A program made the translations under genes and the position numbers. Below are positions 5,551-15,451 of a DNA stretch of 64,000 nucleotides, one piece after another (positions within the stretch are counted from its first letter, which is position 1; every line of letters starts with the position of its first letter). The notes below the pieces were generated by a model. The model worked only from the letters and a program-made list of their open reading frames with translations, was not told the origin of the DNA and made no database searches. The DNA is from Sedimenticola hydrogenitrophicus. GTDB taxonomy: Bacteria; Pseudomonadota; Gammaproteobacteria; Chromatiales; Chromatiaceae. The DNA lies in assembly GCF_025175675.1 (NCBI RefSeq), contig NZ_JANIOA010000002.1, positions 62,001-126,000 on the forward strand. Direction: 5' to 3'.

Positions 5551-7329
5551 GTGAGGCGGAGCAGTATGCAGGCGGTCAGATCATTGAAACAGGGCGAGCG
5601 TGTGCGTGCGCGTATCCTGCTGCCATTCACCCTGGTGTTGCTGTTTGTGATCGGGGCCTTTGTCCTTGCCACCTACGTGGTGGGGGGGCGTGAACAGGAG
5701 GCGGAGCTGGCAAATCGGGTCGGGGACATGGAGAAGCTGCTCGCTCGCCAGATTGAGAGCAACGCGTCGATGATGCAGGCGGCGTTGATCGCCATCTCGC
5801 GTAATGAGGCTATTCAGCGTTCCTTCATGCGTCGCGACCGGGAGGCGCTGCTGCAGCAAACCTGGCCGCTGTTCGACACCTTGCGAGAGACTAATAACGT
5901 CACCCATTTCTATATCACCGAACCGGACCGGGTCAATTTTCTGCGCGTCCATCAACCGGACCAGTTTGGTGACACCATCGACCGGGCGACCACGCGCCAG
6001 GCCGCCGCGCAACGCACCGCGGTCCGGGGGGTTGAACTCGGTCCCCTGGGAACGCTGACCCTGCGTGTGGTGCTTCCCTGGTACCGCGGCGATCAGTTGA
6101 TCGGCTATCTGGAACTGGGTGAGGAGATAGAAAATATCACCGACGAAATCCGCCGTATTCTGGGGGTCGGGGTGCTGGTGATGGTGGACAGTGAGTTGCT
6201 GGGACCGCCCCTACGCGACCCGACGAAGAGAATCAAGGGACACTTCAATATCCCCGAGCGGATTGGTAGTTCGGTAATAGTGGCAAAATCGATCGAACAG
6301 ATGCCCGAGGCGCTGTTGCAGCGATTACGTGACGGCGCTGCCAAGGACCACGAGACCCTGCGGATTGTGGAAGAGGACAAGGAGTTCCATGTCACCCTGC
6401 TCCCATTCTCCGATATCTCCCAGCGGGTGGTGGGCCGACTGGTGGTGGTCCACGATGTATCCGGCGTCCAGGACAACCTCTATCAGGCACTGGGGATGGT
6501 GACGCTGCTCTCGGTGGCGGCCAGTGGGGTGGTGTTTATAATCTTCTATATCATCCTGGGGCGGGTCGAGAGGGACGCCTTGCGCCAGCGGGAGGTGGAG
6601 CTGAAACTGACCCGGATGAACACCGAACATCAGAAGGTGGTACAGATAGAAAAGTTGTCCGCTATGGGGTTGATGGTCGGGGAGATCGCCCATCAGCTGA
6701 ACAATCCCCTGGTGGGGGTGGTCAACATGGCCCAACTGGCTGAGCGCAAGCTTGATGCCCCGGATCAGCTCAGGGGGTTGCTCGGGGAAATCGGCCGGGC
6801 CGGCAAGGATTGCCACGCCTTTGTGCGACGGATGCTGGATTTTACCAAGATCTCCTGTTTTGAACTCAAGGAGAGTGACCTGAACAACCTGGTGAACGAG
6901 ACCCTGTTATTGAGTCAGCGCAGCATTGGCCGTCAGGTGAAACTGGAGGCCGAGTTGCCGGAAAGCCCAACAATCCTCACCGTGGATCCGGTATTGATCC
7001 GGCACGCGCTGTTCAACCTGCTGGCCAATGCGATTCAGGCAAGCCCGGCCGGCAGCGTGGTGAAGATGGGTCTGTTTCCTCACACGCAGGGAGGGTTGCC
7101 GGGCTGGTGTCTAGCCGTCCGTGATCAGGGTTCCGGGATCGACCAGGGGTTGTTTGAGAAGATATTCACGCCGTTTTTTACCACCCGGCCTGATGGCACA
7201 GGGTTGGGTTTACCGGTAGTGCAGCATGTGGCCATATTGCACGAGGGAGAGGTCTGGGCTGAAAACGCCGAGGAGGGCGGGGCGGTCTTCCACCTCTGGC
7301 TACCGCAAACAGGTGGAGTTACGGAATGA
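5551..7329 (+). CDS. Membrane sensor histidine kinase with a periplasmic dCache-type domain
   Basis: Phosphodonor of a two-component system. A transmembrane helix (about residues 26-46) is followed by a periplasmic sensor of about 260 residues whose middle (HFYITEPDRVNFLRVHQPDQFGD, then RVVLPWYRGDQLIGYLELGEEI) looks like the double-Cache sensor family often called dCache_3. A second helix lies near 315-337. The HisKA motif GEIAHQLNNPL puts the phospho-histidine at about H381, and the ATPase domain shows N, G1 and G2 boxes (FNLLANAIQASP, DQGSGID, GTGLGLPV). The start is either GTG 5551 or ATG 5566; a GGAG precedes the second. It overlaps the response-regulator gene by 4 bases. Ligand unknown; the target is inferred to be the reductase operon downstream. 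Confidence 0.88.
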   Translation: MRRSSMQAVRSLKQGERVRARILLPFTLVLLFVIGAFVLATYVVGGREQEAELANRVGDMEKLLARQIESNASMMQAALIAISRNEAIQRSFMRRDREALLQQTWPLFDTLRETNNVTHFYITEPDRVNFLRVHQPDQFGDTIDRATTRQAAAQRTAVRGVELGPLGTLTLRVVLPWYRGDQLIGYLELGEEIENITDEIRRILGVGVLVMVDSELLGPPLRDPTKRIKGHFNIPERIGSSVIVAKSIEQMPEALLQRLRDGAAKDHETLRIVEEDKEFHVTLLPFSDISQRVVGRLVVVHDVSGVQDNLYQALGMVTLLSVAASGVVFIIFYIILGRVERDALRQREVELKLTRMNTEHQKVVQIEKLSAMGLMVGEIAHQLNNPLVGVVNMAQLAERKLDAPDQLRGLLGEIGRAGKDCHAFVRRMLDFTKISCFELKESDLNNLVNETLLLSQRSIGRQVKLEAELPESPTILTVDPVLIRHALFNLLANAIQASPAGSVVKMGLFPHTQGGLPGWCLAVRDQGSGIDQGLFEKIFTPFFTTRPDGTGLGLPVVQHVAILHEGEVWAENAEEGGAVFHLWLPQTGGVTE

Positions 7330-8711
7330 GCACAAATGATCTGTTGAAGCGTTCGAGGATCCTGATTGTCGATGACGATCATTATGTACGTACCCTGCTC
7401 CAGGAGCTGTTTTCCGAGGGGCCGGTTGAGGTGACGGTGGCGGAGGATGCTGCCACGGCACGGGAGTATTTCGAACACGAGGATTTCAACCTGATCATCA
7501 TGGACCAGCGCCTGCCCGATGGTAACGGACTGGACCTGCTGCGTGAGATACGCCAGATCCAACCGCAGCAGATGGCCATCCTGATCACCGGTTATGCCGA
7601 TGTGCGTGACGCGTTGCGCGCCGTACGCGAGGGACTGTTCGACTACCTGACCAAGCCGTTTGAGAACCTGGAAGAGCTGGAGGCGGTGGTTGCCAAGGCA
7701 CTGGAACTGGATCGGGCCTATCGGGAGATCAACGATCTCAAGCAGACGCTGGATAGCCGCTCGTCTCAGCCCGTCTATATCGGACAATCGCCGTCGACTA
7801 TCGCCTTGCAGAAACAGATCAGCCAAGTGGCTGCACTGGATGTCACCGTGTTGATCGAGGGTGACAGCGGTACCGGTAAGGAGTTGGTGGCGAAAAGCCT
7901 GCACGCCCAGAGCCCAAGGAACGAAAGTGGCCGCTTCATGGAGATCAACTGCGGTGCGCTTTCCGAGCAGCTGCTGGAAAGTACCCTGTTCGGTTATGAA
8001 AAGGGGGCTTTCACCGGCGCGGTGAAGATGACCCGGGGCTACCTGGAAGAGGCCGACGGCGGCACCCTGTTCCTCGACGAGATCGCCGATATGAGCACCA
8101 AGCTGCAGAGCAGCCTGTTGCGGGTACTGCAGGAGCACACCTTTTCACGCATCGGCAGTACCGAGCTGCGTTCCAGCGATTTCCGCCTGGTCTGTGCCAC
8201 CAACAAGCGGCTGAGCGATGAGGTGCGCGCCGGCCGCTTCAGGGAAGACCTGTTCTACCGCATCAATGTGGTCTCCCTGGAGCCGATGCCGTTGCGTGAA
8301 CGGCGTGAGGATATCGTGCCCTTGACGGTCCACTTTCTCGACCATTTCAATGCGAAGTTTGGCAAGCGGGCCGGCCCCTTGACCCCCGAGGCTCTCTACG
8401 TGCTGGAGCACTTCTCCTGGCCCGGCAATGTACGGCAGCTGCAGCACGCCATTGAGCGGGTGGTGGCGCTGCACGGCGACGGCCCGATCAGCGCTGCCGA
8501 CCTGGCCTGCCTGGCAGAGGATATAGCCGATGCGGGGGAGGGGACGGAGGATGCGCTGCTCTCCTATCAGAAGGCCCGGGAGAACTTTGAGCGGGACTAC
8601 CTGGAACGGCTGATGGAGCAGGCCAAAGGCAATGTCTCTGAAGCGGCTCGGCTGAGCGGCATACCACGACAGAACCTCTATGTGCGGATGAAACGCTGGG
8701 GAGAGTCGTAA
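7326..8711 (+). CDS. NtrC-family sigma-54-dependent response regulator
   Basis: 461 residues in three domains. An N-terminal receiver (LIVDDDHYVRTLL; phospho-acceptor D60 in MDQRLPDG; TKPF) is followed by an AAA+ domain with Walker A GDSGTGKE (about 179-186), the sigma-54 contact loop GAFTGA (227-232) and Walker B GTLFLDEIADM, then a C-terminal Fis-type helix-turn-helix (GNVSEAARLSGIPRQNLYVRMKRWG). It activates sigma-54 RNA polymerase from enhancer sites when phosphorylated. The gene overlaps the kinase by ATGA. A consensus -24/-12 promoter lies 315 bases downstream, before the reductase operon, which makes that operon the obvious target. Confidence 0.95.
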   Translation: MSTNDLLKRSRILIVDDDHYVRTLLQELFSEGPVEVTVAEDAATAREYFEHEDFNLIIMDQRLPDGNGLDLLREIRQIQPQQMAILITGYADVRDALRAVREGLFDYLTKPFENLEELEAVVAKALELDRAYREINDLKQTLDSRSSQPVYIGQSPSTIALQKQISQVAALDVTVLIEGDSGTGKELVAKSLHAQSPRNESGRFMEINCGALSEQLLESTLFGYEKGAFTGAVKMTRGYLEEADGGTLFLDEIADMSTKLQSSLLRVLQEHTFSRIGSTELRSSDFRLVCATNKRLSDEVRAGRFREDLFYRINVVSLEPMPLRERREDIVPLTVHFLDHFNAKFGKRAGPLTPEALYVLEHFSWPGNVRQLQHAIERVVALHGDGPISAADLACLAEDIADAGEGTEDALLSYQKARENFERDYLERLMEQAKGNVSEAARLSGIPRQNLYVRMKRWGES

Positions 8712-8887
8712 AAACCAGACAGTTGTCGTATTTTTATGACACTTTCACAGGTCCCGGCACCCGGCAAGGCCAATCCTTGACCGAACCGCTGATTCCGGTA
8801 CCGGCTGTCGTTCCCCGCTGACGTCCCGGAAGCGTGTCGAAAAACACATCTATCGCTTTGAAAAATAAGTTTAAAATACCCTAACGG

Positions 8888-15369: not shown

Positions 15370-15416
15370 CGGCTGAGGGCCGGGAGTGAATTTCACCCAT
15401 GCGGCGTCATGTGACG

Positions 15417-15451
15417 ACCCGGTTGTCAGGGTGACAACCGGGTCTGTTTTT
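15417..15451 (+). terminator. Terminator of the reductase operon
   Basis: ACCCGGTTGTCA, loop GGG, TGACAACCGGGT: a perfect 12-base stem followed by CTGTTTTT. It marks the end of the transcript that starts near 9052, and lies between two convergent genes. Confidence 0.9.

Follow-up and report, generated by a model that had tools for sequence, protein, structure and literature searches.

A five-gene molybdoenzyme operon of Sedimenticola hydrogenitrophicus with replaced active-site residues and a PcrQ/PcrO-like cytochrome pair

The locus and its conservation in relatives

A 64-kb stretch of the Sedimenticola hydrogenitrophicus genome (4.7 Mb in 132 contigs), referred to here as the window, carries a five-gene molybdoenzyme operon preceded by the genes of a two-component system (Table 1). 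Genes were assigned by Pfam and NCBIfam profile matches on the window proteins, and the twin-arginine motifs of the catalytic (A) and electron-transfer (B) subunits were recognised by eye. A preliminary description of this DNA had listed a dCache kinase, an NtrC-type activator, a -24/-12 site, the five operon genes and a terminator, all of which were recovered by profile and motif search; the span it gave, 7326 to 15451, holds the operon and the regulator but not the kinase, which lies upstream of them. Genes and sites likewise support its view of the operon as periplasmic, quinol-linked and sigma-54-controlled. Terminator-like sites numbered six in the region against 4.7 in shuffles, the one that closes the operon being the longest.

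Conservation was followed with an EB_dh alignment scan of genome contigs, which found 227 relatives; 80 of these loci were kept, and all counts of EB_dh loci refer to them. The five-gene order is complete in ten of them (L047-L052, L064, L073, L107 and L117), seven being alphaproteobacterial, and the cytochrome genes, regarded from the start as part of the operon, are indeed kept with the B, membrane (C) and A genes in some relatives. In L052 the contig stops within the A gene, and in L117 the EB_dh frame contains a stop and NrfD changes frame. Within 6.5 kb downstream of EB_dh, the other 70 loci hold an octaheme c/cytochrome b561 fusion in 20 cases, a NapC-type cytochrome without B, C and A in eight (the contig of L083 ends too early to exclude them) and, in five, the genes of a tungsten aldehyde oxidoreductase, either complete or cut. 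Two extra loci from a separate genome search (L040, L041) comprise kinase, regulator, EB_dh and NapC only. The operon genes are rare: EB_dh relatives at an E-value of 1e-60 occur in three of 210 genomes of the order, and A-subunit relatives in seven of 274 genomes of the class at 1e-150 and in six of 398 of the phylum at 1e-90.

Table 1. Features of the operon and its regulatory region, in window coordinates
Feature	Position	Strand	Evidence or remark
Sensor histidine kinase with dCache_3 sensor	5551..7329	+	Pfam dCache_3, HisKA, HATPase_c
NtrC-type sigma-54 response regulator	7326..8711	+	Response_reg, Sigma54_activat, Fis-type helix-turn-helix
Tandem palindromic operators TGTC-N10-GACA, 20 bp apart	8704..8741	+	Copy 1 with one mismatch, copy 2 perfect
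-24/-12 (sigma-54) promoter TTGGCACGGGTACTGCA	9025..9041	+	12/13 specified positions matched
EB_dh cytochrome, PcrO/NapO-like	9092..10393	+	EB_dh 180 bits; one CX2CH and one CX3CH c-type heme motif
NapC/NirT tetraheme cytochrome, PcrQ-like quinol dehydrogenase, GTG start	10479..11090	+	Cytochrom_NNT 78 bits; four CXXCH
Four-cluster [4Fe-4S] electron-transfer subunit (B), twin-arginine motif	11114..11881	+	Fer4_11 and others; TtrB/DsrO/NrfC-like
NrfD/PsrC-type membrane subunit (C)	11884..12816	+	NrfD 151 bits
Molybdopterin catalytic subunit (A), twin-arginine motif	12835..15369	+	Molybdopterin and Molydop_binding domains
Codon of Cys182 of A, putatively displaced	13378-13380	+	
Codon of Ser184 of A, canonical ligand position	13384-13386	+	
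Intrinsic terminator	15416..15444	+	13-pair stem, then T-rich tail

Phylogeny and active site of the catalytic subunit

Trees of the A subunit were built from 35 rows and from 40 rows, nine of 49 being dropped as near-copies, partial rows or an outlier. In these trees the A subunits of the five-gene loci, except that of L117, form one clade (100/100), and the TtrA-like, PhsA/PsrA and ArrA-model rows fall outside it, the reference branches being long and few; the preliminary description had set a firm placement inside one of these families against its reading, and neither tree shows one. Branches supported at 99/99 (35 rows) and 100/98 (40 rows) separate it from PsrA/PhsA, for which there are only two references, on long branches; in the 40-row tree it also lies outside the two TtrA-like rows, and five ArrA-model rows make up a separate clade. 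The best model match of the window A subunit is PhsA, with 317 bits for a cut-off of 694, and the TtrA (117 bits, cut-off 1750), ArrA/ArxA (161 bits, cut-off 1600) and QrcB (177 bits, cut-off 440) models also score it below their cut-offs. The A subunit of L117 is placed near the base of the clade in a position that is not settled, and joining it to the clade is not rejected by the approximately unbiased test (p-AU 0.367). The Sedimenticola protein is nested among A subunits that are otherwise mostly alphaproteobacterial, with a branch of 0.72 in the 40-row tree against 0.17-0.35 for its neighbours L048-L051; so long a branch in such a group suggests transfer and fast change.

A canonical sister lineage, with members in the home genome (C57), in the same genus (G360) and elsewhere, is at its nearest 44-49% identical in A and has the same B-C-A order. 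It differs from the window operon in an active site of the HTSIC-EGGK type, in a TorD gene found at 17 of 19 sister loci (two of the 19 being query loci) and in the PhnD-like protein, kinase and regulator beside several of them; the nearest sister loci gave no NapC or EB_dh profile matches. In the home genome, the canonical B-C-A operon of C57 (L026:2347-15560) has TorD and two PhnD-like/kinase/regulator sets nearby. Operons of the order B-A-TorD with such sets and no NrfD match are seen in L034, L035, L170-L172 and L180, and a ten-heme protein precedes B-A in L034 and L035, that of L034 with a NapC domain. A distant B-C-A-TorD operon with a PhnD-like sensor system lies on a plasmid of Azoarcus KH32C (L143), beside the arsenite efflux genes arsA and arsB.

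The active site was compared, in window numbering, between 28 canonical sister rows and ten core five-gene rows, among which those of the window and L047 are near-copies and that of L052 is partial. Arg155, His180, Cys184, Glu185, Lys188 and Tyr354 are invariant in the canonical rows wherever a row has a letter. All ten core rows have these residues replaced, by Trp at 155, Gln, Thr or Asn at 180, Ser, Gln, His or Gly at 184, Leu, Gln or Tyr at 185, Arg at 188 and Ser at 354, and a cysteine at 182, absent from the 28 canonical rows, is invariant in all ten. The canonical molybdenum-ligand position of the window protein, 184, is thus a serine where the PsrA, PhsA and TtrA rows compared here have cysteine, and the cysteine that had been read as the ligand stands at residue 182. 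The aligned positions are presumably those that bind molybdenum or substrate in PsrA, ArrA and dimethyl sulfoxide (DMSO) reductase. With Arg, His, Lys and Tyr all replaced, the oxyanion substrate first supposed is not supported. No variation occurs at the four [4Fe-4S] cysteines of the A subunit, and the L117 protein retains the canonical residues.

The register of the cysteine was also followed with anchored segments, with no aligner. The only cysteine of the segment stands at offset 10 in all ten core rows; in the 22 other rows that could be matched, among them L117 and also L002, for which the match started at an earlier anchor, it comes two residues further on. The remaining 17 of 49 rows, namely BCA34, the outgroups and the references, gave no match to the anchors. 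As the offsets agree, the register is independent of the aligner. Moreover, the cysteine of ArrA (6cz7) falls opposite Ser184 in the HMMER alignment, and so does that of 2vpw in the profile alignment, a single-sequence alignment of 2vpw being one residue off from an inserted residue. The HGW of the window protein aligns with the YGW of trimethylamine N-oxide reductase (7l5i).

The cytochrome pair and the regulatory sites

PsrABC/PhsABC/SrrABC and TtrABC have the A, B and membrane C parts in common with the window operon, but we know of no NapC/EB_dh pair in them. The EB_dh protein of the window has, besides the EB_dh fold, two motifs for c-type heme, and its gene adjoins that of a NapC/NirT tetraheme quinol dehydrogenase, both of which are traits of carriers of the PcrO/NapO type. 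Likened by domains and gene partners to PcrQ/PcrO and NapC/NapO, the pair is by analogy an already known kind of cytochrome relay, in which EB_dh would carry electrons from the quinol dehydrogenase to the reductase. In Azospira suillum, experiments showed that PcrQ/PcrO and NapC/NapO pass electrons from quinol to the perchlorate and nitrate reductases (PMC5845722), and the novelty that the preliminary description had implied for such a pair in molybdoenzyme respiration is not supported. There too, a tetraheme NapC-type quinol dehydrogenase and a diheme EB_dh-type soluble cytochrome serve a periplasmic molybdoenzyme; compared by description, the Azospira systems differ in their reductases (PcrABC and NapAB), and the main text makes no mention of NrfD (PMC5845722). 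Fusions of NapC with EB_dh were found in three plasmid records, with the domains checked in the Ruegeria one, and in C97 of the home genome (L028:471-5035), where a cytochrome D1 gene precedes a fusion of the order NapC-EB_dh-EB_dh that bears six CXXCH and two CX3CH motifs.

The -24/-12 site is the sole match with at most one mismatch in the window and by itself proves little, since 0.44 such matches are expected by chance. In combination with the tandem operators it greatly exceeds what chance would give: the two elements together (a -24/-12 score of at least 10/13 and an operator with at most one mismatch) are present in 16 of 20 loci with an adjacent regulator and in one of 60 without, following our own classing and with L054 (fewer than 100 bases upstream) dropped, and in 0.4% of 2000 random 420-mers from the window. 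Taken singly, the -24/-12 site was found in 17/20 and 7/60 of these loci and a perfect operator in 14/20 and 0/60; L080, L082, L108 and L110 are the adjacent-regulator loci without an operator, and L117 has only about 300 bases of upstream sequence. Counted genome-wide as tandem sites and not as single copies, the operator occurs at one place in the home genome (up to two mismatches), once each in the genus member G354 and in G953, and twice in G955 (one perfect site and one with two mismatches), and a reversed control pattern gave no match in the genomes scanned.

The sensor of the window kinase was compared with 15 other kinases. It is 91% identical to that of L047, 46-47% to those of L048 and L050, and 36-42% to those of eight kinases whose EB_dh neighbour has an aldehyde-oxidoreductase or octaheme partner, and with L040, L041, L080 and L108 only the kinase part is common, the sensor being unlike. 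Because EB_dh genes in other company are likewise preceded by like sensors and operators, the regulatory signal seems to follow EB_dh and not the molybdoenzyme, to which the two-component system had been attributed at first.

As for these other partners, the 20 loci with the octaheme c/cytochrome b561 fusion, of about 680 residues in L075 and L098, belong to Aromatoleum, Sulfurisoma and others. In Rhodoferax and its relatives (L078, L093, L110 and L122, and cut in L082), kinase, regulator and EB_dh stand ahead of genes for a tungsten aldehyde oxidoreductase, and in L126 such genes lie about 7 kb downstream of EB_dh; a periplasmic-type cytochrome beside this oxidoreductase is an odd pairing. 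Elsewhere in the window, a PAS-GGDEF-EAL protein (15489-18119) is convergent with the operon directly past its terminator, and NapA followed by NapG/NapH-like ferredoxins was recognised by eye at 29684-34115, where the profile matches are to Fer4 only.

Function of the operon

The operon, its conservation, the clade, the substitutions and the operator and promoter sites are read from the sequence, and as their explanation we tentatively favour a quinol-fed periplasmic reductase with a rebuilt active site and a new substrate. The A and B subunits would form a periplasmic respiratory molybdoenzyme supplied from quinol by two routes, one through the operon's own NrfD membrane subunit and the other from the NapC tetraheme cytochrome to the soluble EB_dh cytochrome of the PcrO/NapO kind; NapC-type delivery to A-B enzymes is plausible because in a sister lineage L034 joins A and B to a NapC-domain decaheme protein without an NrfD match. 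The catalytic subunit would descend from oxyanion- or sulfur-type enzymes with cysteine-ligated molybdenum, usually with a neighbouring TorD chaperone gene, and in the operon clade its active site would have been rebuilt by a shift of the ligand cysteine two residues upstream to Cys182 and by changes of Arg155 to Trp, His180 to Gln (or Thr/Asn), Lys188 to Arg and Tyr354 to Ser. As the metal-holding cysteine appears to have moved and residues thought to bind charged substrates are lost, the substrate most likely differs from those of the relatives and is probably uncharged, for instance an S- or N-oxide-like compound. Transcription would depend on sigma-54 and on the adjacent dCache kinase/NtrC-type pair acting on the two tandem operators, apparently for the five-gene operon alone.

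Several points weigh against this explanation. Reduction rather than oxidation is a direction that we infer, the kinase and regulator adjoin the operon in only three of the ten five-gene loci (L047, L048 and L050), and the EB_dh proteins of these loci are not all united in the EB_dh tree. The operon and the new active site are not strictly coupled, because L117 has the former with a canonical active site. The near-identity of the window and L047 rows lowers the number of independent core rows, and the AlphaFold model of the A subunit (predicted local distance difference test score 46.6) is too poor to place Cys182 in space. In addition, TorD is near only one of nine five-gene loci (L107, 3.3 kb downstream), which could mean little or no loading of cofactor. 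A more specific proposal, in which the clade moved the molybdenum cysteine by two residues and replaced the conserved residues around it, turning an oxyanion enzyme to a new substrate and joining an NrfD quinone module and a NapC/EB_dh relay in one complex, with L117 as an intermediate, is possible but more doubtful.

The scarcity of TorD and the loss of the canonical ligand position (Ser, Gln, Gly or His) also speak for a quinol:cytochrome oxidoreductase like Qrc or alternative complex III, with the A subunit as a non-catalytic scaffold and electrons moving between quinone (NrfD), B and EB_dh/NapC. QrcABCD and alternative complex III consist of the same types of parts as the window operon (cytochrome, molybdopterin-like subunit, iron-sulfur protein and NrfD), to our knowledge without molybdenum, and the QrcB model scores the window A subunit above its canonical sister (177 vs 165 bits) where the PhsA, DmsA, Fdh and ArrA models score it below. 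The QrcB score is, however, far under the cut-off and the TtrA score is above the sister's as well (117 vs 105 bits); moreover, the kept iron-sulfur cysteines and the new invariant cysteine argue for a working metal site, and we consider a scaffold unlikely. A dehydrogenase, in which the A subunit would oxidise a periplasmic sulfur, arsenic or organic compound and pass electrons to quinone via NrfD or to cytochromes via EB_dh, would suit the EB_dh fold, which is that of ethylbenzene dehydrogenase and of the Nxr heme subunits, and could do without the canonical ligand, as arsenite oxidase AioA has no protein ligand to its metal. The superfamily works in both directions, as oxidase and as reductase, in the case of ArxA/ArrA (PMC10100899). 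This direction is nonetheless improbable, in that the PcrO/NapO relatives move electrons from NapC/PcrQ to reductases (PMC5845722), and the NapC-EB_dh fusions adjoin cytochrome D1 genes. An ordinary oxyanion or sulfur reductase of the Psr/Phs/Ttr/Arr kind with unchanged chemistry, as the preliminary description had it, agrees with PhsA as best model, with the operon layout and with the quinol linkage, but is quite improbable against the replacement in every core row of five residues that do not vary in the sister rows (Arg, His, Cys, Lys and Tyr) and the presence in the home genome of a separate TtrA-like gene, which scores 1255 bits against a cut-off of 1750, besides the canonical sister.

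In the DMSO reductase superfamily, the protein ligand to molybdenum is one of the traits by which branches are defined, and the apparent move of the ligand in this clade, next to a canonical sister enzyme encoded by the same genome, would allow a direct test of the role of the ligand and of a change in substrate range. In the same operon, a relay known from perchlorate and nitrate respiration is found joined to a Psr-type complex, under what is apparently a sigma-54 regulon of one operon, whose inducer could reveal the substrate.

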